Positions 33,472 to 55,216 of a stretch of 64,000 nucleotides of DNA are shown here, one piece after another; the first letter of the stretch is position 1; every line of letters begins with the position of its first letter. Source of the DNA: Streptomyces sp. NBC_01775. GTDB lineage: Bacteria; Actinomycetota; Actinomycetes; Streptomycetales; Streptomycetaceae. The translations under genes and the position numbers were made by a program. The notes under the pieces are model-generated. The model had not been told where the DNA came from. It was given only the letters and a program-made list of their open reading frames with translations, and did not search any database. The stretch covers positions 6,076,001-6,140,000 of the forward strand of contig NZ_CP109104.1 of the NCBI RefSeq assembly GCF_035917675.1, written 5' to 3'.

Positions 33472-34608
33472 TTGCTGGGTCCATACGAGGCGCTGGATGA
33501 CGGCCGTATTCGGTTCCGAGGTAATCGCGTTCATGGGCAGATCGATGATGTGAGAAAGATCGAGGCGCCGGTTTCGAGGTTTCGGAGTCGAGTGCAGGAT
33601 CTCGCGACGGACAAATCGTTCGCGAGTATCGCCAAGATCAATCACCGTGTCTTCTCAGCAGCCCATTCGTATTTCGCCGGGCGCGGTGCGCTCTTCACTC
33701 TCCTCCCTCTCATCACGCGCATGATCTCGTCACCCGGGGCGGTGTACGGGAAAGAGGCGATAAGTTACACGTCGGACACTTCCCCCGTCACTCTCTCCTG
33801 GTTCGATCTGCCGGATCCGGCGTTCCTCTCCGAGTCCTCGCAGATCTACCTTGAGCTGGCGTTGGCCCAGCCAGGAGTGGACGAGGTGTACAGCGTGTAC
33901 AACTCCTTCCGGCTGGAGACGAGCGACTTCTCCCATCTCTCGGAGTTCCATCACATCGAATTCGAGGGAAGGGTTCCGCAGGAAGACAATCTGCGCTGTG
34001 CTATCGGCCTGCTCTCGACCGTCCTGAAAGAACTCCTGGAGAAAGAGGAGGAGTCCCTCGCGCATTTCCTGTCGGCGGACAGGATGGCCGAACTGGCGTC
34101 AATGACAGCACCTTCGGCCTACACGCATCTGACCTTCCGCGAGGCGCTCGAACTACTTCATGAGGACACCGGTGAGGACCGGTTCCGTCGCTTTACCACC
34201 GAAGGGACATTCGGGAGCTGGGAGGAGATCCGGCTGACCTGGATCTGCGGTGGTCCCGTGACGGTCAGCCGTTACCCGCTCCTTGAGGTTCCCTTCTACC
34301 ACGCGGAGATCCAGGACTCGGACCCGAAGACCGCCCACAACGCGGACATCATCTGGCCCGGCTACCGGGAGATAGTCGGCAGCGGTGAACGCATCGGCGG
34401 GACCGATGAACTCGCGGCGAAGGCCGAGATATTCCAGCTCCCTCCGCAGGATTACGCACCGTATCTGGAAACGCGCGAGCTGGACGGCTGGCGTCGTAGT
34501 TCAGGGTTCGGCCTCGGCTGGGAGCGTCTTCTCCAAGGCGTGCTGGAGATGCCGGCGATCTGGGATGTCTGCCATTTCCCGCGAACGCATCTCGCGCTCA
34601 AGCCCTGA
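33472..34608 (+). CDS. AsnRS/AspRS-like class II synthetase core without anticodon domain
   Basis: The start is TTG 33472, supported by AGAAGGGG 7 nt upstream. The 378-residue protein matches the class IIb catalytic core. SSQIYLELALAQPGVDEVYS is followed by SFRLETSDFSHLSEFHHIEF, which is motif 2 with the catalytic Arg but SHL in place of RHL. At the end, GFGLGWERLLQGVLEMPAIW and HFPRTHLALKP are motif 3 and the family terminus. The OB-fold anticodon domain of true AsnRS/AspRS is absent. Stand-alone cores of this kind are known to act as amide synthetases, for example archaeal AsnA-type enzymes. It is probably an amino-acid-activating enzyme of the pathway. It opens the cluster. Confidence 0.8.
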   Translation: MLGPYEALDDGRIRFRGNRVHGQIDDVRKIEAPVSRFRSRVQDLATDKSFASIAKINHRVFSAAHSYFAGRGALFTLLPLITRMISSPGAVYGKEAISYTSDTSPVTLSWFDLPDPAFLSESSQIYLELALAQPGVDEVYSVYNSFRLETSDFSHLSEFHHIEFEGRVPQEDNLRCAIGLLSTVLKELLEKEEESLAHFLSADRMAELASMTAPSAYTHLTFREALELLHEDTGEDRFRRFTTEGTFGSWEEIRLTWICGGPVTVSRYPLLEVPFYHAEIQDSDPKTAHNADIIWPGYREIVGSGERIGGTDELAAKAEIFQLPPQDYAPYLETRELDGWRRSSGFGLGWERLLQGVLEMPAIWDVCHFPRTHLALKP

Positions 34609-34654
34609 TCATTCATCAGGAACTCAACGGCATGGAACGGGGAGGGGCACACGC

Positions 34655-35506
34655 ATGACTTTGATCAACGATGAAGAGTTCGAGCAGTTCTTCGAGCCGT
34701 ACGCACAGAACGTGGACGGCTTCTACGAGGCCTCGTACTGGCGGCTCTGCGACGAGGTCGTACGCGAGCTGATGCGGCGTCACCTCCACGTACAGCCGGA
34801 CGAGCATGTGCTGGACGCGGGCGGGGGCACCGGGCGCTGGGCCCGGTGGACCGTTCGCGAGCTCGGGACGCGGGTCACGGTCGCCGACAGGTCGCGCGCC
34901 ATGCTCGATCAAGCGGCCAAGAGCCTCACGGGTGCGGAGGCCGAAGACGTCGCCGGTAAGATCGAGCTTCTGCGCTGCGACATCGAGGACGCTCCGGAAC
35001 TCCCCAGCGATTCCTTCGACGGTCTCGTCAGCATCTACAACATGCTCAGCTTCAACACCGACCCCGGTCAGGCGTTCGCCACGATGCACCGGGTTCTGAA
35101 GCCGGGCAAGCACGGCCTGGTCATGGGTCAGGGGTTCGCCAACGCCCTGGCATCGAAGTTCAACAGGGACCACGCGTCCGCGGACGAGATCCGCAAGCTC
35201 GCGGAGACCTCGATCGTGCAGTGGGCACCGCACGTTCCCGCTCTCCGGGTGTTCTCCGCCGACGCCCTCACCGAGCTGGCGACCCAGGCAGGCTTCGAGG
35301 TACGCGGCGTCTTCGGGGTCACGAGTCTCATCACCCCCGAGCCGGAGGACTTCACCTACCCGTACGAGAAGATGAGCGAGATCTCCAAGTCGCTGGACGA
35401 CCCCGCCATCTTCGAGGCCGCGCTTGAGCAGGAACTCGCCGTGAACGGGCTGCCGGGATGGGCCGATCGCGGGGTGAACCTGATAGTTCACGTGTACAAG
35501 CCGTGA
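34655..35506 (+). CDS. class I SAM-dependent methyltransferase
   Basis: GGGGAGGGG lies before ATG 34655. The 283-residue protein has the Rossmann SAM site HVLDAGGGTGRWARW (motif I), TVADRSRAMLDQA (acidic residue for the ribose) and LLRCDIEDAPELPSDSFDGL with LSFNTDPGQAFATMHRVLKPG (motifs II-III). The C-terminus is family-specific and does not reveal a substrate. It is the second gene of the cluster and overlaps the next methyltransferase gene by 4 nt. Confidence 0.85.
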   Translation: MTLINDEEFEQFFEPYAQNVDGFYEASYWRLCDEVVRELMRRHLHVQPDEHVLDAGGGTGRWARWTVRELGTRVTVADRSRAMLDQAAKSLTGAEAEDVAGKIELLRCDIEDAPELPSDSFDGLVSIYNMLSFNTDPGQAFATMHRVLKPGKHGLVMGQGFANALASKFNRDHASADEIRKLAETSIVQWAPHVPALRVFSADALTELATQAGFEVRGVFGVTSLITPEPEDFTYPYEKMSEISKSLDDPAIFEAALEQELAVNGLPGWADRGVNLIVHVYKP

Positions 35507-36285
35507 CACGAGCGACCGGGCCGACGGCACGCCAGGCGGCGGAGCCGTACGAGTATCTGGCACAGGTCTACGACCGCTGGACCGCCGAGAACCAGTACGA
35601 GGCGTGGTGCGACTTCGTCGAGGAAGAGTGGCGGTCCGGCCCTGTCGAGGTCCGTGAGGTTCTCGAACTGTGCTGCGGGACGGGCACCGTCCTGCGGCAC
35701 CTGGCCGGGCGGGGCTATTCCGTCACGGGCGTGGACCGCTCGGCCCGCATGCTGGAACGTGCGCGGGAGAAGCTGGGCACGCAGATCCCGCTCGTCCGGG
35801 CCGAGCTGCCCGAACTGCCCGCCGACGGCCCGTTCGACGCGGTCCTCTGCGTCTTCGACAGCGTGAACTACCTGAGTGACGAAGACGGCCTCCGGGAGAC
35901 CCTGCGGGCGGCCGGCAGGGTGCTGCGACCGGGCGGCACCTTCATCTTCGACGTCAACTCGCACCGCAAGCTGAGCGAGATGTTCGGGTCGTCGCACTAC
36001 GGCGACGACCTGGCGGACTTCGCGTACGTGTGGCGGAACAGGTTCGAACCTGCCACCTCCTGCTGCGACTTCCTGATCACGTTGTTCGTGCGCGCGCCGG
36101 ACGGCACCTATACCCGGCACGAGGAACACCACCGTCAGCGAGCCTACGACCGCTCCCACCTGGCGTCGCTCGCGAGGAGCGCCGGGTTCTCAGGCGTGGA
36201 GATCCACGACGACTACAGCCGACGCCCGGCGGGCCCGGAGACGCTGCGGGAGACGTGGGTGCTCACCAAGGCACTGGAGGCGTGA
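35503..36285 (+). CDS. class I SAM-dependent methyltransferase
   Basis: GTG 35503 overlaps the preceding stop (GTGA). The 260-residue protein has VLELCCGTGTVLRHLAGRGY (motif I), TGVDRSARMLERARE and DAVLCVFDSVNYLSDEDGLR, then VLRPGGTFIFDVNS. The second half (DYSRRPAGPETLRETWVL at the end) resembles small-molecule N- or O-methyltransferases. It is not a close copy of the preceding methyltransferase, so the two probably act at different positions. Confidence 0.85.
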   Translation: MTRATGPTARQAAEPYEYLAQVYDRWTAENQYEAWCDFVEEEWRSGPVEVREVLELCCGTGTVLRHLAGRGYSVTGVDRSARMLERAREKLGTQIPLVRAELPELPADGPFDAVLCVFDSVNYLSDEDGLRETLRAAGRVLRPGGTFIFDVNSHRKLSEMFGSSHYGDDLADFAYVWRNRFEPATSCCDFLITLFVRAPDGTYTRHEEHHRQRAYDRSHLASLARSAGFSGVEIHDDYSRRPAGPETLRETWVLTKALEA

Positions 36286-37310
36286 GGTTGGACGGGCCCT
36301 GGAACGCAGTGCACCCCGCCCGGCCGCCGAGCCTGCGGCCGGGAGACGTCATCGGTGTCATCAGCCCGTCCTCACCCGGCGCGCCCGTGGCACCGCAGCG
36401 CTTCCGCCGCGCGACCGACGCGCTGCGGGGCATGGGATTCGAGGTCAGGGAGGGAGCGCGGACCTGGAGCACCGGTGACAGCGCGGGCACGCCGCAGGAG
36501 CGGGCCGCCGAGATCAACGGCTTCCTCCGCGACCCCGAGGTGCGGGCGGTCATCGCCACGATCGGGGGGTACACGTGCAACGCGGTCCTGCCGCTGATCG
36601 ATTACGCCGCGCTGCGGCAGGACCCGAAGATCGTGATCGGATACAGCGACATCACGGCGCTGCTGCTCGCCTGCGTGGCCAAGTCGGAGGTCGTGACCTT
36701 CCACGGACCCACCCTGCTGGCGGAGTTCGGTGAGTTCCCGGCGCCCCTTCCGTACACCCGGGACAGTTTCTGCGAGGTCCTGAGCCGTCCCGTGGCCGCC
36801 GGTCCGCTTCGGCAGCCGTCGGAGCGGACCGACCAGTTCCTGCTCTGGGACGCGGAGGACACCCGGGCGCGTGCGCCGGAGACCGCTCCGCCGAGGTTAT
36901 GGATCACCGAGGGGAGGGCCGACGGCCCGCTCCTCGGCGGCAACCTCGAAACCCTGTCCGTACTGGCAGGCACCGAGTACCTCCCTGACCTCCGCGGCGC
37001 GGTCCTGCTGTGGGAGACCTGCGCCACCTCCGTCAGCAGGGTCGATCAGCTGCTGACCCAACTCGGCATGCTGGGCCTCACCGACAGCCTGGCGGGAATG
37101 ATCGTGGGTCAGGGGTTCCGGGCCCCACCGGAGTTCGAAGGGGCACTGCACGCGCACCTGGCCGAGCGGTACGCCGACTGCGGCTTCCCCGTCGTCGTGG
37201 GCGCGCTCGTCGGCCACTCCGACCCCATGCCGACCCTGCCGCTGGGCTGCCGAGTCGTCCTCGACTCGGCGCGAGGGTCTGTCGAGGTGATCGATGCCGC
37301 TGTTCGATGA
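36282..37310 (+). CDS. S66 peptidase, MccF/LD-carboxypeptidase type
   Basis: GTG 36282 overlaps the preceding stop. The 342-residue product has the S66 catalytic triad: Ser122 in VIGYSDITALLLA, Glu223 in PLLGGNLETLSVL and His312 in VGHSDPMPTLPLG. The N-terminus RPGDVIGVISPSSPGAP is also typical. In MccF this family confers immunity to microcin C and aminoacyl-sulfamoyl adenylates by cleaving the amide to the nucleotide; LdcA members trim peptidoglycan. TEGRADGPLLGGNLETL is closer to MccF. Inside a cluster with three synthetase homologues, self-immunity is the better reading. Confidence 0.8.
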   Translation: MRLDGPWNAVHPARPPSLRPGDVIGVISPSSPGAPVAPQRFRRATDALRGMGFEVREGARTWSTGDSAGTPQERAAEINGFLRDPEVRAVIATIGGYTCNAVLPLIDYAALRQDPKIVIGYSDITALLLACVAKSEVVTFHGPTLLAEFGEFPAPLPYTRDSFCEVLSRPVAAGPLRQPSERTDQFLLWDAEDTRARAPETAPPRLWITEGRADGPLLGGNLETLSVLAGTEYLPDLRGAVLLWETCATSVSRVDQLLTQLGMLGLTDSLAGMIVGQGFRAPPEFEGALHAHLAERYADCGFPVVVGALVGHSDPMPTLPLGCRVVLDSARGSVEVIDAAVR

Positions 37311-37767
37311 CGAGGTCAGCGCGTGCGCGGCCCGGCTTCTGGGAGATTCCGGCTTCACGCGGCTGCTCGCGGTGCCGTCCATCCCCGTCAACAGCCCGCA
37401 GGGATTCCGCTATCCCCTCCGGACCAGGACGGCGGACGGGAGCGAATGGTATCTGCGCTCCTGGGGCACCGACTTCCGGACCGTGAGCCGCTCCTGGCTC
37501 CGCCGGGGCCTCTGCGCGTCCTTCTCGCTCGGCTGGGCCGTCATTCCGGAAGGGCAGACCGACCGGCTGCTCATGATCGAGGCCTTCGGGACGGACGGCT
37601 CCGCGACGGCCGCCCGCAAGGAGAGCGCGCTGGACGCCGTCGCGCCCTACGTGTGCCGGACGACGGTGGCGGAGGGCGAGCAGTGGGGCCGTACGACGCT
37701 GCGCATCGCGGCGCTGCTGCGGCCCGGGCCGCGGACCACGGACGGGAGTGCTCCTCGTGATCGCTGA
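37294..37767 (+). CDS. hypothetical protein coupled to the ProRS-like gene
   Basis: ATG 37294 overlaps the end of the peptidase gene by 17 nt, and its own end overlaps the next gene. The 157-residue protein has no recognisable domain, signal peptide or membrane segment. Notable segments are GFRYPLRTRTADGSEWYLRS and DRLLMIEAFGTDGSATAARK. Its tight overlap on both sides suggests a partner of the ProRS-like protein or of the peptidase. Function unknown. Confidence 0.7.
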   Translation: MPLFDDEVSACAARLLGDSGFTRLLAVPSIPVNSPQGFRYPLRTRTADGSEWYLRSWGTDFRTVSRSWLRRGLCASFSLGWAVIPEGQTDRLLMIEAFGTDGSATAARKESALDAVAPYVCRTTVAEGEQWGRTTLRIAALLRPGPRTTDGSAPRDR

Positions 37768-38992
37768 CGCCTACCTCCGTACGCTGGAGGACGCCCGGTT
37801 CGTGCTGCCCGGGTCCTACGGCCGGGGCATCCCGGTGTGGCAGGACGCCGGGCTCCGCGCGGCCCGCCGCCTGGTATCGGCTTTCGAGTCGGCCCTCGGA
37901 CAGTGGTGGTCGCCCCGCACCGTCGAGCACCCCTTCCTCATGCCCGCCGCCGAGTACCAGCAGGTGTTCGACGACTACACGAATGTCTACGAGACCGTCG
38001 TCCCCGAGGCCGGCGGATCCTTCGTGCTGGCACCCGACAACATGCCGGCCAGCGTCGGCTGGCTGCGGGAGCACGGCGGCGAGGATCCGCTGGTGGCCGT
38101 CGGGGGGCTGTTGCGCATGCTGCCCGGCGGGGCCCAGCCGCTCTTTCGCGACCGGCACATCTGGCCGGCCGTCCAAGTGACGCATCTCGTCGGGGAACAG
38201 GACGCCCTGGACGAGCTGGAGCGTCACCGGGCAGCACTCACCCGGCTGCACGAGCTGCTGTGCCTCCCGGTGATGACCGTGAGCACCGGGAGCCTCGCCT
38301 CGTACGGCCGGACGACCTGGCTGATGGTCAGTTGCCTCCCCGACGGGCGTCCCACCGTCACGGCGACGCTCTACGTGATGTCGGGTCACTACCGCGACAG
38401 GCTGCTGGCCGGCAGGGAAGTGATCGATGTCGGCTTCACCGGCAAACTCCTGGCTCTCGTCGCCCTGCACCACCGGGACGCGTCCGGCCTGGTCCTGCCT
38501 TCGGTCCTCGCCGACACACAGGTCGGGGTGCTCGCCGGGGCGGAGGACCGGCGGCTTCGGGAGCGGTGCGCGCAGCAGGCTCGGGGGGACATCCGGGTAC
38601 GGACGGTGGACCCCGGGCCCCGGCAGTCCACCCGCCGGCGCGCCGAGCGGCGGCTGCTGAGGGAGGGCGTTCCGCTCGTCGTCGGGGAACGGCCCGGGGG
38701 CCCGCGCGTCGCGCGCAGACACCCCCTCCGCAGGGCGGACCTCCCCGCCCTGCCGGACCCGGGGACGCTGCGCGGCGAACTCGCCGCACACGACGACCGT
38801 CTCGGACGGACCGCGGCCGACCGGTTCGCGGCCGGCCTCCGGGAGGCGGGACGTCTGGTCGCCCGCTGCGGCGGGTGCGCCGCGACGGGAAAGGAAGAGA
38901 TCTTCGGCCGGACCGTCCCCGAGGTGTCCGCCCGCTGCGGCACATGCGGGGCGCCCGGAAGCGAAGTCCTGCTGGGTGGACGTTTCTACTGA
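37757..38992 (+). CDS. degenerate archaeal-type prolyl-tRNA synthetase paralogue
   Basis: I chose GTG 37757, with GGGAG 8 nt upstream, rather than GTG 37748. The 411-residue protein follows the ProRS layout: LPGSYGRGIPVWQDAGLRAA, SFVLAPDNMPASVGWL (for L-PTSE), PLFRDRHIWPAVQVTHLVGE, PDGRPTVTATLYVMSGHYRD and HRDASGLVLPSVLADTQVGV, which leads into the anticodon-binding fold. The C-terminus CGGCAATGKEEI ... RCGTCG resembles the zinc-binding end of archaeal/eukaryotic-type ProRS. Motif 3 is altered (VGFTGKLLALVALHHRD, lacking the usual G-x-S-x-R), so tRNA charging is doubtful. It may activate an amino acid or hydrolyse or bind a product. Confidence 0.75.
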   Translation: MIADAYLRTLEDARFVLPGSYGRGIPVWQDAGLRAARRLVSAFESALGQWWSPRTVEHPFLMPAAEYQQVFDDYTNVYETVVPEAGGSFVLAPDNMPASVGWLREHGGEDPLVAVGGLLRMLPGGAQPLFRDRHIWPAVQVTHLVGEQDALDELERHRAALTRLHELLCLPVMTVSTGSLASYGRTTWLMVSCLPDGRPTVTATLYVMSGHYRDRLLAGREVIDVGFTGKLLALVALHHRDASGLVLPSVLADTQVGVLAGAEDRRLRERCAQQARGDIRVRTVDPGPRQSTRRRAERRLLREGVPLVVGERPGGPRVARRHPLRRADLPALPDPGTLRGELAAHDDRLGRTAADRFAAGLREAGRLVARCGGCAATGKEEIFGRTVPEVSARCGTCGAPGSEVLLGGRFY

Positions 38993-39043
38993 TCTGCGGA
39001 CGATTTCCACTGAACTCACGTGTACAGCGGGAAGGGGCTCCAC

Positions 39044-39964
39044 ATGCGATCGCTACGCGACTCCAGTGATGTACGCGAGGACCCGGACGGTCTGACCGGG
39101 CGGCTCCGTGAGGACGGCTATCTCTACCTGCCCGGTGCCCTCGACCCGGACAGGGCCGAGGCCGTCTCCGCCGACCTGCGCGCCGCGCTGCACGGGGTCG
39201 GCTGGCTGGACGAGCCGGGCACGACGCGGGTGCGCTCCCGCGACCGCAAGTTCACCGGCGAGTCGATGAGCGGGGGATACGCCGCGTTGCAGGGCGTGGA
39301 GTCGTTCCACGCCCTGGGCCACGACCAGGCCCTGCTGGAGCTGACCTCGGGCATCCTCGGCGGTCCGGGCTTCTGTCATCCGGCACGGGTGGGCAGGGTC
39401 TCGTTCCCCGAGGCCGGCGCGGGGGGCTTCTTCACCAGGCCGCACCAGGACTTCTCCGTCCTGCACGTCACCACGGACGTGCTCACGACCTGGATCCCGT
39501 TCACGGCCTGCTCGGACGACCACCAGGGCGTGTGCATCCTCCCCGGGTCCCACCGCGAGGGGTACCGGCGACCCGACCCCACGATGGGCGGCGCACGGCC
39601 GCTGTACGTACGGGAGGAACCGGAGGACCCACGATGGGCCACCGCCGACTTCCAGCTCGGGGACATCGTCGTCTTCCACAGCCTCACCGTGCACGGGGCG
39701 ATGACCAACCACAGCGACCGGGTCCGTCTGTCGGCCGACTTCCGCTACCAGCTGCCGACGGACCCGCTGCGGCCGGAGTGGTTGCACCCGCACGGATGGC
39801 CGCGCACCCCCGACTGGCCGGAGCTGACACAGGGCTGGAGCTCACAGCGGTGGACCGAGGCACCCGCCGAGGTTCCGCTGATCCCCGCGCCGGAGGGCCT
39901 CGAATACCTGGAGATACTCGACGGCCTCGAGCCGCCGCGGTCGCGCGTACTCTCCGGCGCATGA
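39044..39964 (+). CDS. PhyH-type Fe(II)/2-oxoglutarate dioxygenase
   Basis: GGAAGGGG precedes ATG 39044. The 306-residue protein starts LREDGYLYLPGALDPDRAEA, the usual opening of phytanoyl-CoA dioxygenase-like enzymes. The iron ligands are His134 and Asp136 (TRPHQDFSV) and the distal His217 (FHSLTVHGA). An arginine in DRVRLSADFRY should bind 2-oxoglutarate. The enzyme probably hydroxylates or otherwise oxidises a pathway intermediate. Confidence 0.85.
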   Translation: MRSLRDSSDVREDPDGLTGRLREDGYLYLPGALDPDRAEAVSADLRAALHGVGWLDEPGTTRVRSRDRKFTGESMSGGYAALQGVESFHALGHDQALLELTSGILGGPGFCHPARVGRVSFPEAGAGGFFTRPHQDFSVLHVTTDVLTTWIPFTACSDDHQGVCILPGSHREGYRRPDPTMGGARPLYVREEPEDPRWATADFQLGDIVVFHSLTVHGAMTNHSDRVRLSADFRYQLPTDPLRPEWLHPHGWPRTPDWPELTQGWSSQRWTEAPAEVPLIPAPEGLEYLEILDGLEPPRSRVLSGA

Positions 39965-40085
39965 CGGGCGACGGGCCCGACCGCGTCGAGCTGACCACCG
40001 CCTCCGCCCTCCGGCCGACGCGGAGCCGGTGCGGGCGTTCCGCCGGGACCTGTGGAATCAGTCAGTGACCAAGATCGGAGCGACT

Positions 40086-40892
40086 GTGCCGGATCCCTAC
40101 CTTCGTCCCGCCGCCGACACCACGATCGACCCGGAGGAACTCGCGGACCTGTGTACGCGCCTCCGCGCGCCCGACTGCCCGCGGGAGGGCGTTGTCGGGC
40201 TCGGCCGGTGGGAGCTGGAGTACCGCGACCCGCGCGCGTTCGCGACGACCGTGGAACTGCTGTTCCGCGACGGGGTCTACGACGTCGACGGACTCGCACG
40301 GCCCGCGGTCGTCCTCGACGGGGGCTCGTGGCTCGGGCTCAGCGTGCTGCGCTTCCGCTCGCTGTTCCCCGACGCGCTGATCCGCGCCTTCGAGCCCGAT
40401 CCGGAGCTGTTCGAGGTGCTGACCCGGAACCTGGAGCGCAACGGCGTCGGGAACGTGGAGCTGCACAACGTCGCCCTCGCCGACCAGGAGGGCGAGCTGG
40501 AGTTCCTGGCCACCGGCAACGACGCCGGAAGCCTGCGCGTACGGTCGCCCAGGGGCCGTCTCACGACGGTGCCCGCCCGGGTGCCGAGCGCGTACGTGAC
40601 CGCACCGCTGTCGCTGCTGAAGCTGAACGTCGAGGGCTCCGAATGGGACGTCATCGACGAACTGGGCGACCGGCTCGGCCTCGTGGACCAGTTGCTCATC
40701 GAATACCACGGCTTCGGTGACCTGCCGCAGACGCTCCACCGCATCCTCGGCCGTCTCCACGAGCACGGCTTCACCTACATCGTCAGCCATTTCAACGAGC
40801 GGAACCGAGCCTGTGTGCCACCGCTGCGGCTCACCGCCGACTTCCGGTACTTCCTGCTGATCTATGCCCGGCAACTCGGCGCGGGCGAATGA
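40086..40892 (+). CDS. FkbM-family methyltransferase
   Basis: GTG 40086 follows GGAG by 5 nt; a GTG at 40065 is also in frame. The 268-residue protein has a SAM-binding core typical of FkbM: VVLDGGSWLGLSVLRFRSLF, RAFEPDPELFEVLTRNLERN, VELHNVALADQEGELEF and LKLNVEGSEWDVID. FkbM enzymes O-methylate sugar or polyketide hydroxyls. Here a sugar or amino-alcohol hydroxyl is plausible. The radical SAM gene starts 12 nt later. Confidence 0.85.
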   Translation: MPDPYLRPAADTTIDPEELADLCTRLRAPDCPREGVVGLGRWELEYRDPRAFATTVELLFRDGVYDVDGLARPAVVLDGGSWLGLSVLRFRSLFPDALIRAFEPDPELFEVLTRNLERNGVGNVELHNVALADQEGELEFLATGNDAGSLRVRSPRGRLTTVPARVPSAYVTAPLSLLKLNVEGSEWDVIDELGDRLGLVDQLLIEYHGFGDLPQTLHRILGRLHEHGFTYIVSHFNERNRACVPPLRLTADFRYFLLIYARQLGAGE

Positions 40893-40903
40893 GGTGTTCG
40901 TAG

Positions 40904-43181: not shown

Positions 43182-43297
43182 GGCGCATGCGCGTAATCCC
43201 GTCTCCGGTGAGTAACCGCACGGGATACGCTGTCTCCAAGGATGTGTCGGGTGACCGGCGGACTGCGGACCGTACTGCGGACAGTTATGAGGGCGAA

Positions 43298-44863: not shown

Positions 44864-44930
44864 CCGACAGCGGAAGCCCGGGGGCGAGGGATTCCTCGCT
44901 TCCGGTCGGCTGATGAGGGGGCAATGAATC

Positions 44931-46940
44931 GTGACAGCCATGTCGGATCTGGTGGACATAACCACCACTTCGGTAGGCCGAGACACTCTGCTCACCACGT
45001 ACAGCAGCTTCTTCGAGAACATCTCGTACAGCGGTTCATTCCGCGTTGTGGTGACCATCGACCCCGCATACGGAGTCGAGGAAGAGGAGGTGGAGGAGAC
45101 CGTACGGTTCCTTGAGGATCTGCCGAGGCAGTATTCCCAAGTCCGCGAGGTCGTAGTGGAACGCCTCCCGAAGCGGATCGGTTTGCAAGGCGCGCTTTCA
45201 CTGCTTTTCGCGCATGCCGCGGCTCCGGTCGGAGTGCACTTGGAAGACGACTGGAGGTTCATCGCACCTGTGGACCTGGACGTCCTGATCTCCGAGCTGT
45301 ACGCGCACGAAAGCAGCCAAATAGTGCTGACGAACTCGCATGCGGCAAGAGGCGGGACCTTCGAGCGCCTCGACGAGGTGGCGGAGGTCCCGGGAACCGC
45401 GGGCCGTCTGCTCCGGCTGAACAGGTCGAGCTGGGCGGCGCACTATATGCCGCTGTGCCCCCATCTCCACCGCACGGACCGGTGGGCACCGACCGTCGCG
45501 AGGGCTCTCGCGCTCACCGACGGTGTGCGATGCCCGGACGAACGGGTGCGCGAGCGGGTTGTGGCCGAGCAGGCGACGGACCGGCACAACGTGCTGTGGA
45601 CGCGTGATGTCGTCGCCGAGGACCTGGGCCGCGAGTGGCTGGTCAAGCGCGCCCGGTACAAGGCCATCACCCCGGAGTACGCGGGGGACGCCGAGACCGG
45701 CGGTGCGACGCGGAGATCCGGCGACGCACCACTCGTACTGAAGCGTTCGGCCGCTCTGAGATCCCGGGCCGAGAAGTTGATCCCCGGCATGACGCAGACA
45801 TTCCACAAACGCCCCGAGAACTTCGCCGACGGGGAATACCCCGTGTACGCGGAACGCGGTCGCGGATCCCTTCTGTGGGACGTCGACGGCAACTCCTACG
45901 TGGACTTCGTCATGGCGCTCGGCGCGGCCTCACTCGGCCATGACCATCCGGTGCTGAGCAACGTCGTCCGAGAGCGGCTCGGCCGTGGGGTGCTGCTGTC
46001 CCTTCCGGCCCAGACCGAAATCACCGCGGCTGAAGAGCTGGTGAGCGCGGTCCCCGGAATCGAGATGGTCCGATTCCTCAAGACGGGCGCGGAGGCGTGC
46101 TCGGCCTCCATGCGTCTTGCCCGGCACCTGACCGGACGAGAGCACTTCCTCCTGGCCGGATATCACGGCTGGCACGACCAGTTGGGCGGGCCCAGCGCGG
46201 GCGTTCCGACCAGTGCCGCACGGCTGGGGGAGCGCTCGACCCTAGACAGCCCTGCCGACGAATCGCGATTCCTCGCGGCGGTGCGTGAGCGCGGTGAGCA
46301 GCTCGCGGGCGTGATGGTGAGCACGCCGTACCACCGGGTGCTCAGCGCCGAGTTCCTGAGCGAACTCCGCGCCGCCTGCGACGAGCACGGTTGCCTGCTG
46401 GTGCTCGACGAGATCGTCACCGGATTCCGGCTCGCTCCCGGCGGCTTGGGACAGTTCCACGGCGTGCACGCGGACATTCTCTGCTTTTCCAAGGGGATGG
46501 CGGCCGGAATGCCCCTGGCGGCGGTTGCCGGCCCACGGCACATCATGGACAGGTTCGCCGAGATCCGGGTCTCCACGACCTTCGGCGGTGAACTCCTTTC
46601 CCTGGAGGCCATGAAGGCGGCACTGCGCGAGTACGGGCGGACCAACTACTACGAGCACATCGCGGCGCTCGGGCGACAGCTACGTGACGGGATCAACGAG
46701 CATGCGGTGGGGCTGGGACTCGGCGAGATCGTGACCGGCTACGACCCGATGCCGTGCCTGCACTTCGATACGGACCCCGCAGCACACCAGCGGATCGCCC
46801 GGAAGTTCCTGGCAGAGATGGCGCGACGCGGGTTCCTGCTGCGACGTGACGTCAACTTCATCTCCGCGGCCCACACTTCGGACCAGATCGATGACGCGGT
46901 GTCGGCCTCGGCGGAAGCGCTGAGAGCGGCCCACACTTGA
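44931..46940 (+). CDS. glycosyltransferase-like / class III aminotransferase fusion
   Basis: GTG 44931 follows GAGGGGG by 9 nt. The 669-residue protein has two parts. Residues 1 to about 240 look like a GT-A glycosyltransferase (VDITTTSVGRDTLLTTYSSF, then GVHLEDDWRF with the acidic metal motif). Residues about 275-669 are a glutamate-1-semialdehyde-aminotransferase-like PLP enzyme: GNSYVDFVMALGAASLGHDH, FLKTGAEACSASMRLARHLT, LLVLDEIVTGFRL, and the PLP lysine Lys521 in CFSKGMAAGMPLAA. The fusion suggests that one protein both handles and aminates a sugar-like or ketone-bearing intermediate. I do not know a described protein with this architecture. Confidence 0.8.
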   Translation: MTAMSDLVDITTTSVGRDTLLTTYSSFFENISYSGSFRVVVTIDPAYGVEEEEVEETVRFLEDLPRQYSQVREVVVERLPKRIGLQGALSLLFAHAAAPVGVHLEDDWRFIAPVDLDVLISELYAHESSQIVLTNSHAARGGTFERLDEVAEVPGTAGRLLRLNRSSWAAHYMPLCPHLHRTDRWAPTVARALALTDGVRCPDERVRERVVAEQATDRHNVLWTRDVVAEDLGREWLVKRARYKAITPEYAGDAETGGATRRSGDAPLVLKRSAALRSRAEKLIPGMTQTFHKRPENFADGEYPVYAERGRGSLLWDVDGNSYVDFVMALGAASLGHDHPVLSNVVRERLGRGVLLSLPAQTEITAAEELVSAVPGIEMVRFLKTGAEACSASMRLARHLTGREHFLLAGYHGWHDQLGGPSAGVPTSAARLGERSTLDSPADESRFLAAVRERGEQLAGVMVSTPYHRVLSAEFLSELRAACDEHGCLLVLDEIVTGFRLAPGGLGQFHGVHADILCFSKGMAAGMPLAAVAGPRHIMDRFAEIRVSTTFGGELLSLEAMKAALREYGRTNYYEHIAALGRQLRDGINEHAVGLGLGEIVTGYDPMPCLHFDTDPAAHQRIARKFLAEMARRGFLLRRDVNFISAAHTSDQIDDAVSASAEALRAAHT

Positions 46941-47442
46941 GCGGTGCTGTCGCTGGGTGATCAGGTGGCAGGCAGCCATATTGTTTCACCCGCCGCCCTG
47001 TGCCTCGCGAATTCGAGGCGGCGCCGAGTTACTTCCCGGCAGAGTGCTTCGAAGTGCTGTGCGCACATGCGCGGACGCACTGCCGGCCGTGAGCCATGCC
47101 ACCGCGGCTTCGGACAAGAGACCCACTCCGGTCCGCGCCGGGCGGGGCGCCGGAGGTGCCCCGGGTCGAGCAGACGACCGAATGGCCACGGGCGAGTGCT
47201 GTGCCGGCCACCGTGCGGGAGAGGAAGGCCCGTTCCCCCAACAACCGGCACACGCACGCGACTTGCCCCTCTGCGGGTGGGCGCAGGTATCCGGCATCTC
47301 CGTCCTTGCCTGACGGCCGACTCGATATTACGATCACGCGCCGAGGCGGCATGCCCCTTCTAGGACCTGCGGGTCCGATGGTTGCGATCTTGAAAGGTTG
47401 CGGTTCGGCCCACCCGTCACAGCGCCAGAGGGAGTAGCCCCG
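46941..47442. other. 502-nt gap inside the cluster
   Basis: No convincing gene is present; small frames on both strands lack ribosome sites and family features. The region breaks the otherwise continuous operon and carries a candidate promoter at 47306-47334 for the second half of the cluster. It could be the scar of a lost gene. Confidence 0.5.
47306..47334 (+). promoter_or_regulatory. candidate promoter of the second cluster operon
   Basis: TTGCCT (47306-47311) and TACGAT (47329-47334) are 17 nt apart. The region is A/T-richer than the surroundings. The HemK-like gene begins about 108 nt downstream of the -10 box. Confidence 0.4.
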
Positions 47443-48573
47443 GTGAGCACGCGGCAAGTCGTTCGCTGGACCGAAGCCGACGAGGAGCGATCCGCCCGCT
47501 GGCGCTCCGAGGACGGAGTGCCGCTGCCGGAACGTACCGTCGTCGCGGACGACCGTACGGTGCCCGGGGCCGCGTACCGACTGGCCGCCGACGGCACAGG
47601 GATGCTGTGGCGCGGCGATTTCCGGAACGCACGCCGACTGCTGCGGGACATGAAGGAACGCGCCGACCGGGCGCTGCGGGAAAGGAAGCTGCCGGAGGCA
47701 CCGGTCGAGGCGTACCGCGCGCACCGCCGGGCGCGGGCTGAGCGGGCGCACACGCTCGGCATGCTGCTGGTGCCGTTCGAGCCCGACGGCGCCGTTGCCC
47801 TCCGCAACGCGCCCGACGTCCAGGAGGCATGCAAGGAGGCGTACGGCTCGGGGGACGAACCGTTCGTCGCTCCGCTCCGGGAGCTGCTGCACCTGATCTG
47901 GGCGCGGGAGGAACGCCGGAAGGGCTTCGAGGTGCCCGCGCTCGGGGACCGTGTCCACCCGCACTACGGCGTCTTCACACCCGTGGGGCGGGGCGAGTAC
48001 ATGGATCTGGTGGCCGAGGCGCCGTTGCCCACACGGACCCTGGCGTTCGACATCGGCACCGGCAGCGGCGTGCTGACGGCGCTGCTGGCCCACCGGGGCG
48101 TCGAGCGGATCGTCGCGACGGACCAGGAGCCGCGTGCCCTGACGTGCGCGCGGGAGAACCTGACCCGGCTGGGCCTGGCCGACCGGGTGGAGTTCCTGCG
48201 GACCGATCTCTTTCCCCCGGGGCGCGCCGGGCTCGTGGTGTGCAACCCGCCGTGGGTTCCGGGGGAGCCGCATTCGCCCGTCGAGCGCGCGATGTACGAC
48301 CCCGACAGCCGCATGCTGCGAGGCTTCCTCGACGGCCTGGCGGCGCATCTGGAGCCGGGTGGCGAGGGGTGGCTGGTGATCTCGGACTTCGCCGAGCACG
48401 TCGGCCTCCGGCCTCGGTCCGAGCTGCTCGCGGCGTTCGGGGCGGCGGGTCTGGAGGTCGTCGCGCGGACGGACATGAGGCCGCGGACTCCCTGGGTCCC
48501 GGACGAGAACGAGCCGTTCCCCGCGGCACGCGCGGCCGAAGTGACCTCTCTCTGGCGTCTCGCCGCCCGCTGA
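47443..48573 (+). CDS. HemK/PrmC-like methyltransferase with N-terminal extension
   Basis: GAGGGAG precedes GTG 47443. The 376-residue protein has a SAM site (TRTLAFDIGTGSGVLTALLA) and the catalytic loop NPPW (LVVCNPPWVPG) of N5-glutamine and related amino-methyltransferases. A helical N-terminal region of about 170 residues precedes it. NPPW/NPPY enzymes methylate amide or amino nitrogens of proteins, nucleobases or small molecules. Cluster context favours a small molecule, but a resistance methyltransferase acting on RNA or protein is possible. Confidence 0.75.
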   Translation: MSTRQVVRWTEADEERSARWRSEDGVPLPERTVVADDRTVPGAAYRLAADGTGMLWRGDFRNARRLLRDMKERADRALRERKLPEAPVEAYRAHRRARAERAHTLGMLLVPFEPDGAVALRNAPDVQEACKEAYGSGDEPFVAPLRELLHLIWAREERRKGFEVPALGDRVHPHYGVFTPVGRGEYMDLVAEAPLPTRTLAFDIGTGSGVLTALLAHRGVERIVATDQEPRALTCARENLTRLGLADRVEFLRTDLFPPGRAGLVVCNPPWVPGEPHSPVERAMYDPDSRMLRGFLDGLAAHLEPGGEGWLVISDFAEHVGLRPRSELLAAFGAAGLEVVARTDMRPRTPWVPDENEPFPAARAAEVTSLWRLAAR

Positions 48574-48659
48574 GACCGGACGGTCCGCAACCACCGCACG
48601 ACGATCACCGCGAGCAGTACGAGGCGGGGCGCGCCCCTGGAGGGCGGAGGGAGGAAACC

Positions 48660-49622
48660 ATGAACGTGCCGAAGTCGCCGCCGCGGCAGGCGCCCACGAC
48701 CACGCACCGGGTGGAATGGAGGGCGTTGCCGCGAGAGGTCCGGCTGGCCCTCGAAGAGCGGCTGGGGTCCCGCGTCGTCGCGTCGGAGACTCAGCACGGG
48801 GGGTTCTCGCCCGGTATGGCCGCCATCGTGACCTGCGCCGACGGGAGCGAGCACTTCATCAAGGCGGTGAACCCCGGCCTCAATCCCGTGTCACCGGGGA
48901 TGTACCGGGAGGAGGCGTCGTACTCCGCCGCGCTGCCGGACGGACTGCCCGTCCCACGTCTCCGCCATGTGCACGATGACGGCGACTGGATCGCGCTCGT
49001 CTTCGACGCCGTCATCGGAAGGACCCCCGACGTCCCGTGGAGCGCGGCGGACGTCCGGCGTCTCCTGGACACGATCCAGGTCCTGGCCGACGCACCGCTC
49101 ACCGGAGACCCGGTCGGTCTGCCTTCCGTTCCGGACCGTCTTGAGTACAGCTTCGGCGCCTACCGCCGGCTGGCGGAGAGGCCGCAGGACCTCACCGCCT
49201 GGGAACGCGGGAACATCGACCGGCTGGTCCCCGCGGCCGAGTCCGCCCTGGAGTTCGTGGCAGGCGATTCCCTCGTGCACCTCGATCTGCGTGCGGACAA
49301 CATCGTCCTGGCCCACGACGGGGGCGCGTACATAGTCGACTGGTCCTGGGCCTCGACGGGTGCCCCCTGGGTGGACGAGGTCTGCTTCCTCGTGAACGTC
49401 GCGACCTACGGGGGGAACGCGGAGCGTTTCCTCACCGCCGACCAGCACCTTGCCTCGGTGCCCCGGGACCACGTCACCGGCTTCCTCGCCGGACTGAGCG
49501 GGATGTGGACGGAGGCCCTCGCCGAACCGGCGCCGCCCGGCCTGCCCACGCTGCGCGCGTTCCAGCGGCTCGAGAGGGACGCCACGCTCGCCTGGGTCCG
49601 AGCCCGTACGGGCTGGAGCTGA
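48660..49622 (+). CDS. APH-fold phosphotransferase
   Basis: GGAGGGAGG lies before ATG 48660. The 320-residue protein has the aminoglycoside-phosphotransferase fold: FIKAVNPGLN (lysine for ATP), the catalytic loop LVHLDLRADNIVLAHDGGAY and VDWSWASTGAPWVDEVCFLV (the DFG-like metal Asp). It may phosphorylate a hydroxyl of the product, as a biosynthetic step or as self-protection. A second APH-fold gene lies 1.6 kb downstream. Confidence 0.85.
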   Translation: MNVPKSPPRQAPTTTHRVEWRALPREVRLALEERLGSRVVASETQHGGFSPGMAAIVTCADGSEHFIKAVNPGLNPVSPGMYREEASYSAALPDGLPVPRLRHVHDDGDWIALVFDAVIGRTPDVPWSAADVRRLLDTIQVLADAPLTGDPVGLPSVPDRLEYSFGAYRRLAERPQDLTAWERGNIDRLVPAAESALEFVAGDSLVHLDLRADNIVLAHDGGAYIVDWSWASTGAPWVDEVCFLVNVATYGGNAERFLTADQHLASVPRDHVTGFLAGLSGMWTEALAEPAPPGLPTLRAFQRLERDATLAWVRARTGWS

Positions 49623-49704
49623 AGACCCCGAACCGTCACCGTCAACGTCACCGAAACCGCCGCCAGGCCCCCGATGGGACACGCATGAACAGGAGATCCG
49701 GTAC

Positions 49705-50571
49705 ATGAGTGAAATCCTCGTCTCCGTCCACGGCAACACCCTCGACGTCCGTACCCAGCTCGTGGTCGTGGACACGGACACGGCCACCGCGCGACGAGCG
49801 CCGTTCGATCTGCCGGACGGGTTCCAGCGGTACATGGGGCTCGCCGTGGACGGCCCGCGGGTATCCGCCCTCGCGGTCTACCTGGACAACCGGACCTCGC
49901 TGGTCACCCTGGACAGGACCGGGGACGGGCCGACGCTCGTACGGCCACTGCCCGGTGTCATGGACGGACACAGCATGCTCGCCGAGGACGGTGACGTCCA
50001 CGCCGTGTCCTCGGGGACGGACGAACTCGTGCGGTTCTCCTTCTCCGAGGACCGTGCGGAACCGGAACCGGAACCGGAGCCGGAACGGCGGACGGTGTGG
50101 CGCGCTAGCGACGAGGAGCGCGACACCCACCACATCAACTGCGTGCTCCGGCTGGACGGGAACATCCTCGTGTCCGCCTTCGGACCCTCGTCCACGGGCT
50201 ACCGGCGCCACGCCATGGACGGCTACATCTTCGACGTGACGGACAACCGGCCGGTGCTCACCGGGGTCGCGCAGCCCCATTCCGTCACGGTACGCGAAGG
50301 CCTCCTGTACTACTGCGCATCCGGTACCGGGGAATTCCGCTCGGAAAAAGGCACCGTCATCGCCCTCGACGGCTATCTCCGTGGCGCATGCTGGCTCTCC
50401 GACGACCTCGTGTGCATCGGCACCAGCGCCGGGCGTGCCAAGGACAGGAAGAGCCATTCCGCTCGCGAGGACTGCGCCGTGTGGATCGTCGACGTGACCT
50501 CCGGCGCCGTGGTGAGCCGTATTCCCATGGGGCGGTTCGGCCCTGAGATATACGACATCGTCCTTTTGTGA
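49705..50571 (+). CDS. TIGR03032/DUF4915-like beta-propeller protein
   Basis: AGGAG precedes ATG 49705. The 288-residue protein has beta-propeller features with no signal peptide: RYMGLAVDGPRVSALAVYLD, DTHHINCVLRLDGNILVSAF, GVAQPHSVTVREGLLYYCAS and GYLRGACWLSDDLVCIGTSA. These repeats match the TIGR03032 type often seen with glycosyltransferases and other sugar-modifying genes. A Glu-Pro repeat (EPEPEPEPE, about residues 119-127) is inserted in one blade. Catalytic role unknown. Confidence 0.7.
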   Translation: MSEILVSVHGNTLDVRTQLVVVDTDTATARRAPFDLPDGFQRYMGLAVDGPRVSALAVYLDNRTSLVTLDRTGDGPTLVRPLPGVMDGHSMLAEDGDVHAVSSGTDELVRFSFSEDRAEPEPEPEPERRTVWRASDEERDTHHINCVLRLDGNILVSAFGPSSTGYRRHAMDGYIFDVTDNRPVLTGVAQPHSVTVREGLLYYCASGTGEFRSEKGTVIALDGYLRGACWLSDDLVCIGTSAGRAKDRKSHSAREDCAVWIVDVTSGAVVSRIPMGRFGPEIYDIVLL

Positions 50572-50640
50572 CGAGGGAGGGGCCGATCATGTCCTCGCAC
50601 CGGGAAAGCGGTCTCGTGGAATTCCGGGGAGGTACGCCCC

Positions 50641-51258
50641 ATGGGCATGCGCGCGGCCGATGACGCCGAGCCGCCGTCGGCGACGTTCTCCAGGGCGTAT
50701 TTCGACGGTCGCTACGCCCGCGACCCCGACCCCTGGGGAATGGCGACCAAATGGTACGAGCGGCGCAAGTACGCCGTGACGCTCGCGGCGCTGCCGCGGG
50801 CGGGCTACCGCGACTGCTTCGAACCCGGCTGCGGGACAGGCGAACTCACCCGCCTATTGGCTCCGCGCTGCGAGCGTCTGCTGGCCGTCGACTTCGCCGA
50901 ATCGGCCGTGGGATCGGCCCGTTCAGCCGTGAGCGAGTTCGCCCACGTCGAGGTCCGGCAGGCCACGCTGCCGGAGGACCTGCCCGACGGACGCTACGAC
51001 CTCGTCGTCGTCAGCGAGATCCTGTACTACCTCTCCGGTGACGACCTCAAGGTGACGCTGGACGGCCTTCTCGGACGGCTGGAGGCCGGCGGCGACCTCG
51101 TCGTGGTCCACTGCCGGGCTTCCGACCGCCGCCACGGCTACGACGGATTCAACGTGCACTCGTCGGTCGCGTCGCGGCCGGAACTGGAGAGCCTGGTGCA
51201 CCACGAGGACGAGGAATTCGTGCTGGACGTCTTCCGCCGGTCCGGAGAGTGCCCGTGA
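50641..51258 (+). CDS. NodS-like SAM-dependent methyltransferase
   Basis: GGGGAGG lies 8 nt before ATG 50641. The 205-residue protein begins FSRAYFDGRYARDPDPWGMA, then KWYERRKYAVTLAALPRAGY and FEPGCGTGELTRLLAPRC (SAM site), followed by DLVVVSEILYYLSGDDL. This is the pattern of NodS-type N-methyltransferases, which methylate the free amine of a deacetylated glucosamine. Together with the PIG-L deacetylase it suggests N-methylation of an unmasked amino sugar. Its stop overlaps the next start. Confidence 0.85.
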   Translation: MGMRAADDAEPPSATFSRAYFDGRYARDPDPWGMATKWYERRKYAVTLAALPRAGYRDCFEPGCGTGELTRLLAPRCERLLAVDFAESAVGSARSAVSEFAHVEVRQATLPEDLPDGRYDLVVVSEILYYLSGDDLKVTLDGLLGRLEAGGDLVVVHCRASDRRHGYDGFNVHSSVASRPELESLVHHEDEEFVLDVFRRSGECP

Positions 51259-52061
51259 CCTCCACACTTCCGCTCACGCAATGGGCCGAACTGCCCGCCG
51301 AGGTACGGGAAGCGGTCGAGGAACGCGCCGGGCCGGTCACCGAAGCGGAGCACCTGGACTTCGGCGAGGGCGCCGAGCTGGCCTCGATCCTGACCACCCC
51401 GGACGGGAAGGTGTTCGCCAAGGGCACCTTCATCGACGGCCCGCTGGCACCGCGCCTCGACAGCGAGGCCAGGATCAACCCCCGGGTGGCACGGCTGGCC
51501 CCCCGGCTCCTGTGGCGGGTGGCGGCCGGAAAGTGGCTCGTCGCCGGATTCGCGTACGTGCCGGGCAGGCACGCGGACTACTCGCCCGGTTCCCCCGACC
51601 TGGACAGACTGGCCGAAGCGGTGGCGGTGCTCCAGGACCTGCCCTGCCCGGACCAGGTGACCTGGCGGGTCGAGCGGCGCTGGTCGGGGTTCACGGACCA
51701 GGCGCATGTGATGACGGGCGAGGCCCTGGTCCACAAGGACCTGAACCCCCGTAACGTCCTCATCACCGAGGAGCGCGCGTACGTCGTCGACTGGGCCACG
51801 CCGTGCAGGGGAGCGGCATGGGTGGAACCCGCCCTGCTGGTACCGAGGCTGGTCGGGCACGGACACAGCCCCCGGGAGGCGGAGGAGTGGGTGGCGCAGT
51901 TCCCGTCCTGGAGCCGCGCGACGGCCGGGGCGCTGGACGTGTTCGCAGACGCGGAGGCCCGCAAACGGCAGTGGCTGGCCTCGGAGTGGCCGCTGCCCCG
52001 CCAGCTACAGAATGCCAAAGGAGCCTGGAAATGGGCCCGTTGGCGGTCTCTTCGCCGCTAG
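51255..52061 (+). CDS. APH-fold phosphotransferase
   Basis: GTG 51255 overlaps the preceding stop (GTGA). The 268-residue protein has the kinase-like fold: KVFAKGTFIDGPLAP (ATP-binding lysine region), LVHKDLNPRNVLITEERAYV (catalytic loop with Asp and Asn) and VDWATPCRGAAWVEPALLV (metal Asp). It is clearly related to, but not a duplicate of, the first APH-like protein. It ends the cluster; the type IV secretion gene begins 182 nt later. Confidence 0.85.
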   Translation: MTSTLPLTQWAELPAEVREAVEERAGPVTEAEHLDFGEGAELASILTTPDGKVFAKGTFIDGPLAPRLDSEARINPRVARLAPRLLWRVAAGKWLVAGFAYVPGRHADYSPGSPDLDRLAEAVAVLQDLPCPDQVTWRVERRWSGFTDQAHVMTGEALVHKDLNPRNVLITEERAYVVDWATPCRGAAWVEPALLVPRLVGHGHSPREAEEWVAQFPSWSRATAGALDVFADAEARKRQWLASEWPLPRQLQNAKGAWKWARWRSLRR

Positions 52062-52243
52062 ACTCCCGTCCGACTCCCCTCGCCGGTTGCTGAGACGTGT
52101 GCGGGTGCAGATCTCCTGGATCTCCTCGTACCGGTACGCCGCCACAGGCAGAGCACCTCTTTCGTCCTCGCCGGTCATCCCCGGATCTCCGGTCCTCGGC
52201 GGCGAGCGGGGCGTCCCACCTTGAAGAGAGAGGTATCAACGGG

Positions 52244-54223: not shown

Positions 54224-54293
54224 GGAAGCGGTAGCGGTCGTAGGGCTCGCGAGGAGCCGTGCGGCGGACGGCGGCCCGGGGCGCGGCGCGCGC

Positions 54294-54363
54294 GTCGGAA
54301 CCGGGCCGTCGGAACCGGGCCGTCGGAACCGGGCCGTCGGAACCGGGCCGTCAGAACTGGGCC
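54294..54363. repeat. five tandem 14-nt units between convergent genes
   Basis: GTCGGAACCGGGCC is repeated four times without change from 54294 to 54349. A fifth, diverged unit (GTCAGAACTGGGCC, 54350-54363) carries the stop codon and last codons of the minus-strand phosphatase-like gene. So the array seems to have grown out of the 3' end of that gene. Confidence 0.9.
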
Positions 54364-55154: not shown

Positions 55155-55216
55155 GGGGTCCATTGTCGCGTCCGCGTCCGCGGGAATGTGGCGTACCCGG
55201 GGTGGCGGCGGCCCGG

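Follow-up and report, generated by a model that had tools for sequence, protein, structure and literature searches.

A MetRS-bearing Streptomyces gene cluster related to that of agrocin 84, probably encoding a Trojan-horse antibiotic

The closest described system is the agn cluster of agrocin 84, an antibiotic that blocks a single enzyme of protein synthesis; it is carried by plasmid pAgK84 of Rhizobium rhizogenes K84. In the literature, AgnA of this cluster is a shortened AsnRS without the anticodon domain (PMC4392301), and AgnB2 is the self-immunity LeuRS (PMC5059758). MetRS, in turn, is presented as a pursued antibacterial target, with aminoquinolones, REP8839, compounds 1717 and 2144, and CRS3123, the last having completed phase I trials (PMC7916415). 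No natural MetRS inhibitor or MetRS-bearing agrocin-like cluster is among the literature matches listed.

An open reading frame and Pfam profile search of the window (the whole 64,000-nucleotide stretch analysed, from a soil bacterium) shows a block of 18 genes at 33472–52061, all co-directional on the plus strand, followed at its right edge by a coupling protein gene:

33472–34608, +, AsnRS catalytic core without anticodon-binding domain (AgnA-type ligase); PF00152, 1.4e-30
34655–35506, +, SAM methyltransferase MT1; PF13649 on the longer frame 34385–35506
35458–36285, +, SAM methyltransferase MT2; PF13649, 2e-21; 35% to AgnC3, 2e-42
36282–37310, +, MccF-type S66 peptidase, probable self-immunity hydrolase; PDB MccF, 7e-55; 37% to AgnC5, 8e-61
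37294–37767, +, conserved 157-aa protein of no known family; homologues only
37748–38992, +, derivative of ProRS whose active site is altered (AgnC1-type); 32% to AgnC1
39020–39964, +, PhyH-type oxygenase; PF05721, 1.5e-19; 29% to AgnC6, 2.5e-33
40029–40892, +, FkbM-type methyltransferase; PF05050, 2.6e-7
40904–41641, +, radical SAM/SPASM enzyme, BtrN-like; PDB BtrN, 1.1e-30
41638–42435, +, PIG-L deacetylase; PF02585, 4.7e-11; PDB Dbv21, 1.4e-13
42432–43181, +, DXD glycosyltransferase; PF04488, 1e-11
43298–44863, +, full-length MetRS, probably the immunity copy; PF09334, 4.9e-99 (longer frame, from 43103)
44931–46940, +, putative glycosyltransferase N-terminal domain fused to a class-III aminotransferase; PF00202, 1.3e-43, residues 303–590
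47398–48573, +, methyltransferase, MTS/PrmC-like; PF05175, 2.8e-11
48660–49622, +, APH-fold kinase 1 (weak assignment: ThiK, 5e-4; Pfam search without match)
49705–50571, +, DUF4915/TIGR03032 protein; PF16261, 2.3e-18
50641–51258, +, NodS-like methyltransferase; PF05401, 2.6e-15
51249–52061, +, APH-fold kinase 2; PF01636, 6e-6
52097–54223, +, T4SS coupling protein (TraG/VirD4-like); PF02534, 4.5e-37

Homology searches match all 18 genes in a second same-genus genome (G069) and 16 of them in an Actinomadura draft genome (G392), confirming the preliminary description of 18 co-directional genes around synthetase homologues. These two and the window's own genome (G000) define the close cluster, whose genes are kept together as a block across all three; a fourth, divergent cluster, which also has a MetRS and matches 10/18 genes, lies in genome G023 of the same genus. 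The 157-aa protein, with no match in Pfam or NCBIfam, is 72% identical in G069, 66% in Actinomadura, and 34% in G023. A TraG-type gene also adjoins the cluster in G069 and G392; however, in G069 the DNA to the right of it (window positions 54349–64000) is 86–87% identical, against 78–84% for pieces of the cluster, so it looks like part of a neighbouring locus. It was dropped as a pathway member and is probably just a neighbour.

Counterparts of five of the 17 agn proteins compared are found in the window, at 27–37% identity: AgnA, AgnC1, AgnC5, AgnC6, and AgnC3. Eleven yield nothing in the window at 1e-3, including the methyltransferase adjoining agnA; agnD, agnE, agnF, and agnG have none at this threshold in the 18 genes plus TraG, and AgnB2 shows only a distant class-I match to the window MetRS (27% over 203 residues). 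The anticodon-less AsnRS core, the MccF-like S66 peptidase, and the ProRS-derived AgnC1 protein are agrocin 84-type traits that the window shares. Hence, the earlier statement that no characterised cluster is alike was wrong, and the notion of a cluster with no known relative was overturned by the ProRS-like protein matching agnC1: the core is already described, in agrocin 84, and the novelty is the MetRS-bearing variant. A match to a known cluster, named beforehand as grounds for refutation, applies in part, since agrocin 84 fits in its core, while identity is low and the full-length synthetase differs. The view of a genuine biosynthetic cluster resting on synthetase homologues is upheld; these three homologues probably have separate roles.

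The AsnRS core matches asnS family models solely from position 127–130 onward and is 27% identical to AgnA (E 2e-20). Class-II motifs are retained across 130 aligned rows, and the 33 AgnA-type rows form one clade against five other rows (support 99/94, in a tree with few outgroups and long branches). The AsnRS-like protein of the MetRS-bearing G023 cluster, which shares 10 of the 18 genes, is 43% identical to AgnA and bridges the window and agn. Several plasmid records name AgnA-type proteins "asparagine synthetase A", which would suit an asparagine synthetase, or else a protein-modifying ligase, amid unrelated neighbours. Such a reading is extremely improbable: asnS models give 135–150 bits, whereas asparagine-synthetase models, including the archaeal-type synthetase A, give 52–80 bits, under curated cut-offs of 309–389, so that the asparagine-synthetase assignment was rejected; moreover, the cluster genes are conserved as a block. 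The AsnRS core probably has an assembly role of the AgnA type.

Sequence comparison supports the ProRS origin of the AgnC1-type protein, the match to AgnC1 covering 273 residues. A class-level search with it yields one of 394 genomes, the window's own, although with about four candidates scored per genome this says little on spread. The ProRS-like families of actinobacteria and archaea are both ProRS-derived; matching their profiles against each other gives a probability of 58%, and a shared ancestry beyond that was dropped as a claim. Eight of 23 divergent ProRS-like relatives lie on a contig identical in size to that of a MetRS relative among the 120 listed; the same contig-matching test is insensitive, because for close ProRS-like relatives it recovers MetRS in only one case of nine.

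In each of the four cluster genomes read (G000, G069, G392, and G023), MetRS sits within the cluster. No intact MetRS besides the cluster copy was found in the three close-cluster genomes: genome searches give no second strong match in G000 (99.97% complete) or in the Actinomadura draft, and in G069 the second gene is broken, with pieces in three frames and one stretch missing. In each of 12 comparison same-genus genomes MetRS lies outside the cluster-MetRS clade, no clade copy being found there. Among 16 same-genus genomes with a clade MetRS, 15 have another MetRS-type gene too, including G023, which retains it alongside the cluster copy. A role as an assembly enzyme was considered and dropped, since a full-length MetRS, in a genome where no other was found, more likely has an essential role. 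Variants of the KMSKS site are uninformative as a resistance mark, given their spread among the 120 MetRS relatives (KLSKS 60, KISKS 28, KMSKS 5, KQSKS 2, no pattern match 25). By analogy with AgnB2, the cluster MetRS is most likely an immunity copy and therefore a pointer to the target, which suggests that the product is a natural antibiotic aimed at MetRS. The earlier proposal to test extracts against MetRS pointed the right way.

The old MetRS could also have become dispensable through gene displacement, with no inhibitor involved. In that case assembly would be agrocin-like, the cluster MetRS would be an ordinary replacement of the housekeeping gene rather than a target marker, and the target would be another enzyme. 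In genome G330, a related MetRS (64%) is the sole one found, with no other cluster gene in the surrounding 28.7 kb, hence the clade is not strictly tied to the cluster; an accessory MetRS (51–54% identity) occurs in 14 of 392 same-genus genomes, with no other cluster gene near it in the seven read. Both observations favour replacement. Still, we consider it unlikely: every cluster genome read has MetRS inside the cluster, the pathway of agrocin 84, the relative that has been characterised, comes with an immunity synthetase, and a full synthetase is likewise present in three plasmid relatives that are uncharacterised.

The amino-sugar genes allow another reading, namely an aminoglycoside- or mycothiol-like pathway in which the AsnRS core joins an amino acid onto an amino-sugar that has been deacetylated, without a nucleotide warhead. 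MshC performs such a ligation with CysRS logic. The BtrN-like enzyme, PIG-L, class-III aminotransferase, and NodS-like methyltransferase of the window agree with this, as does G023, with a YdjC-type protein and no PIG-L match. The aminotransferase fusion has glutamate-1-semialdehyde aminomutases as its best PDB matches, with C-6' aminotransferases also in the list; it is 58% identical to the copy in G023 and 45% to those in G069 and G392, which sit elsewhere in the cluster. We regard the amino-sugar pathway as distinctly improbable, however: in the sole characterised relative, genes of the AgnA, AgnC1, and MccF types are those of a nucleotide antibiotic, and archaeal sets consist of an AsnRS core, methyltransferase, MccF, and often a second synthetase-like gene, with few sugar genes. 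MshC is absent from the family-model matches of the AsnRS core, and the window MetRS scores 25.9 bits against an MshC cut-off of 485.

On balance, we favour an agrocin-84-like Trojan-horse antibiotic cluster with MetRS as the probable target. Observed are the gene content, the agn homology, the conservation, and the lack of another intact MetRS in the three close-cluster genomes; from these we infer the product, each enzymatic step, resistance, immunity, and target. Against this reading weigh the low identity to agn and its eleven unmatched proteins, the related MetRS of G330 outside any cluster, the further MetRS gene of G023, and the plasmid and archaeal loci that lack an extra full-length synthetase. 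The AsnRS core and the ProRS-derived protein would make a stable mimic of an aminoacyl-adenylate, with an N-acyl phosphoramidate nucleotide as its probable form; the methyltransferases and the PhyH oxygenase may tailor it toward a likeness to Met-AMP. An N-acyl phosphoramidate adenine nucleotide is the product type that marks agrocin 84-like clusters. The glycosyltransferase, together with PIG-L, the BtrN-like enzyme, and the aminotransferase, may attach an amino-sugar by aminoglycoside-type chemistry, for uptake or for masking the toxin. Inside the producer, the MccF-type peptidase would cut the acyl-nucleotide bond, and the cluster MetRS would be a resistant copy that took over housekeeping aminoacylation. 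The small aminoacyl, amino-sugar, or nucleotide-like product proposed in the preliminary description was a sensible guess.

Of the nine plasmid loci read, four have an extra full-length synthetase beside AgnA-type genes: pAgK84 and the Xenorhabdus locus a LeuRS, the Exiguobacterium and Peribacillus loci an AlaRS. There is none at the other five and at most archaeal loci. Gene sets of an AsnRS core, a methyltransferase, and MccF are seen again in DPANN-type archaea (12 loci), with the MccF-family gene missing at two (L104, L106), its match split over two adjoining frames at L099, and the AsnRS-like gene partial at L106 and L107. MT1 is 26–32% identical to methyltransferases adjoining AsnRS-like genes at loci L102, L103, and L105. 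We tentatively propose, at somewhat less than even chances, that aminoacyl-adenylate mimics built by synthetases form a superfamily with programmable targets, spanning bacteria and DPANN-type archaea, and that the window is its MetRS branch. The core would be an AgnA-type AsnRS, a methyltransferase, and MccF; a degenerate class-II synthetase (ProRS-, AlaRS-, LysRS-, or AspRS-like) would help set the acyl unit, and the immunity synthetase, where present, would name the target (Leu, Ala, Met). Within this scheme, our closer guess is that methylating an Asn-type side chain yields a near-isostere of methionine. If so, there is a natural MetRS inhibitor whose producers lack their sensitive MetRS, agrocin 84 belongs to a larger family as one of its branches, and a full-length synthetase, where present, predicts the target from sequence; if the archaeal sets function alike, very small archaea also make such compounds.

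Compared with known systems, the cluster shares with the 2-deoxystreptamine aminoglycosides (butirosin/neomycin) a BtrN-like radical SAM enzyme, a deacetylase, and an aminotransferase domain whose matches include C-6' aminotransferases, but its core is synthetase-based, with no Pfam match for ring formation in the 18 genes. With microcin C, as far as described in PMC7916415, it shares the MccF-type immunity peptidase and the aminoacyl-nucleotide Trojan-horse logic; there the basis is a ribosomal peptide, here synthetase cores, with no Pfam match to ThiF-type MccB at 1e-3 among the 18 genes. The Xenorhabdus, Exiguobacterium, and Peribacillus plasmid clusters share the AgnA-type ligase (39–42% to AgnA), methyltransferase, S66 peptidase, and extra synthetase, which is LeuRS or AlaRS unlike in the window; their second synthetase-like protein is ProRS-like in Xenorhabdus and AlaRS-like in the other two. 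Agrocin 84 shares the AgnA, AgnC1, AgnC5, AgnC6, and AgnC3 types and a full-length class-I synthetase within the cluster, but has LeuRS where the window has MetRS; the window cluster differs further by its amino-sugar tailoring genes, its 27–37% identity, and its actinobacterial chromosomal location, agn being on a plasmid.

In the genome carrying the window (9.34 Mb, 99.97% complete; window at G000:C1:6076001-6140000), 18 genes, all on the plus strand, occupy positions 33472 to 52061.

Genes of the cluster, in order
Genes 1-4, plus strand: AsnRS-like core, methyltransferase MT1, methyltransferase MT2, MccF-type S66 peptidase
Genes 5-8, plus strand: 157-aa conserved protein, ProRS-derived protein, PhyH oxygenase, FkbM methyltransferase
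Genes 9-12, plus strand: BtrN-like radical SAM enzyme, PIG-L deacetylase, DXD glycosyltransferase, MetRS
Genes 13-15, plus strand: two-domain protein with a class-III aminotransferase, MTS/PrmC-like methyltransferase, APH-fold kinase
Genes 16-18, plus strand: DUF4915 protein, NodS-like methyltransferase, second APH-fold kinase

The gene list of the preliminary description is essentially correct; its weakly supported entries are the glycosyltransferase part of the aminotransferase fusion and the first APH-fold kinase. The cluster is a real, conserved unit: all 18 genes are matched in the same-genus genome G069 (45–93% identity) and 16 of them in Actinomadura sp. NBRC 104425 (45–85%). Nucleotide similarity between the window and G069 starts at 33398. 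A close AsnRS gene is rare: of 392 genomes of the genus, two have one at E 1e-40, and one of these is the genome carrying the window. A divergent version, with ten of the 18 genes matched and a YdjC-type protein and a P450 next to them, is present in a third genome of the genus, G023; comparison with the 18 window genes gave no PIG-L match at this locus. The glycosyltransferase/aminotransferase gene has a closer copy in G023 (58%), while its 45% match is placed elsewhere in both G069 and the Actinomadura draft; therefore, as far as sequence can tell, it has probably been swapped between cluster types. Right of the cluster, 52097-64000 holds the gene of a TraG-like coupling protein and several others, among them one for an M23/SLT peptidase; the encoded proteins are 69–90% identical to those of the corresponding G069 flank, and the cluster may be located at this locus or travel with it. 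Elsewhere in the window, at 7014-12937, are genes akin to the YhfZ/YhfT/YhfS group.

Comparison of 17 proteins of pAgK84, the agrocin 84 plasmid, with the 18 cluster proteins of the window plus TraG (cut-off 1e-3) matches AgnA with the AsnRS core (27% identity, 2e-20), AgnC1 with the ProRS-like protein (32% over 273 residues, 1e-23), AgnC5 with MccF (37%, 8e-61), AgnC6 with PhyH (29%, 2.5e-33), AgnC3 with MT2 (35%, 2e-42) and, distantly, AgnB2 with MetRS (27% over 203 residues). The remaining 11, including the methyltransferase adjoining agnA, have no match at this cut-off among these window proteins. The AsnRS-like protein of G023 is 43% identical to AgnA. At 1e-5 the plasmid matches of the ProRS-like protein are confined to five Agrobacterium/Rhizobium plasmids; one record calls the gene agnC1, and the other four list it as hypothetical. 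Judged by these similarities, the core of the cluster is that of agrocin 84. AgnA is described as a truncated AsnRS homologue without the anticodon-binding domain (PMC4392301), and AgnB2 as a second, TM84-resistant LeuRS (PMC5059758). TM84, the processed form of agrocin 84, is a LeuRS inhibitor: an N-acyl phosphoramidate similar to Leu-AMP (PMC4307249; PMC7916415).

By this analogy, the AsnRS core and the ProRS-like protein would most likely form a stable acyl-nucleotide resembling Met-AMP, tailored by the methyltransferases and PhyH, with the amino-sugar genes supplying an uptake or masking group; our guess is that an amide-methylated Asn side chain would be near-isosteric with methionine. 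The producer's MccF would hydrolyse the compound, much as MccF acts hydrolytically on microcin C (PMC7916415), and the cluster MetRS would tolerate it, having taken over service to the cell.

The MetRS genes of the three close-cluster genomes were surveyed by searching with PF09334. The cluster MetRS is the only strong match in the window's genome and the Actinomadura draft, other matches reaching 72 bits at most, in other long frames. G069 has, in addition to the cluster copy, a second MetRS gene in pieces, one piece with an internal stop; against an intact 617-residue relative it aligns at residues 43-272 (75%), 256-294 (62%) and 377-616 (81%), in three frames, and upstream of it is a homologue of the gene preceding MetRS in genomes G013 and G117. 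No MetRS remnant was seen at the best-matching neighbour locus of the window's genome, where the other surroundings differ and the neighbour may be a paralogue. A MetRS outside the cluster clade is present in all 12 same-genus comparison genomes, and in a further set of 16, each with a clade MetRS, 15 have another MetRS-type gene as well. In the remaining genome, G330, the sole MetRS found is of the clade (64%), with no other cluster gene in the 28.7 kb around it. This case, and a second MetRS besides the cluster copy in G023, weigh against a strict rule of replacement. Separately, MetRS genes 51–54% identical to the window's occur in 14 of 392 same-genus genomes (L050-L063), each also with another MetRS-type gene; they may point to further chemistry or resistance directed at MetRS.

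The plasmid survey covered nine loci that have AgnA-type genes, in a collection whose gene tables are incomplete. Six (pAgK84, Bradyrhizobium, Xenorhabdus, Exiguobacterium, Streptomyces NBC_01707, Peribacillus) have an annotated S66 peptidase; none is annotated at the Pantoea, S. changanensis and NBC_00829 loci in these incomplete tables. At four loci there is an additional full-length synthetase, which is a LeuRS for pAgK84 and Xenorhabdus (the latter 42% identical to AgnB2) and an AlaRS for Exiguobacterium and Peribacillus.

Plasmid relatives of the cluster
Exiguobacterium, L122 11939-26229: AgnA-type ligase, AlaRS-like core, 595-aa AlaRS
Peribacillus, L126 9807-16427: AgnA-type ligase, AlaRS-like core, 595-aa AlaRS
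Streptomyces sp. NBC_01707, L124 15917-24059: AgnA-type, methyltransferase, ProRS-like, S66 and molybdopterin dehydrogenase genes
Bradyrhizobium, L118 13907-17692: S66 peptidase, AgnA-type protein, HAD hydrolase, methyltransferase; near nodU

The first two are probable AlaRS-directed relatives; the NBC_01707 set would, at a guess, suit a nucleotide of the phosmidosine kind (prolyl, 8-oxoadenosine).

The proteins closest to the AsnRS core beyond its own clade are 50–60% identical, and the few named ones are archaeal or bear synthetase names (both among the best 120 of 467). In the phylum of a Nanoarchaeota MAG, 11 of 371 genomes have relatives of the core; together with one from Micrarchaeota, they give 12 archaeal loci (L003, L004, L098-L107), which we take to be from DPANN-type archaea. 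Ten have an MccF-family gene, nine a methyltransferase from one of two families, and five a ProRS-like gene; other second synthetase-like neighbours are AlaRS-like (L003), LysRS-like with a radical SAM gene (L101) and AspRS-like (L103). Six of the methyltransferases are 32–43% identical to the one adjoining agnA. These archaeal gene sets, which combine an AsnRS core with a methyltransferase, an S66 peptidase and a second synthetase-like gene of varying type, possibly make agrocin-like antibiotics.

No such cluster was found among top-ranked matches in the open-licence literature, by title and start of abstract. The assembly logic is already known from agrocin 84; as far as we have seen, the association with MetRS, the version with amino-sugar genes in actinobacteria and the sets found in archaea are new.
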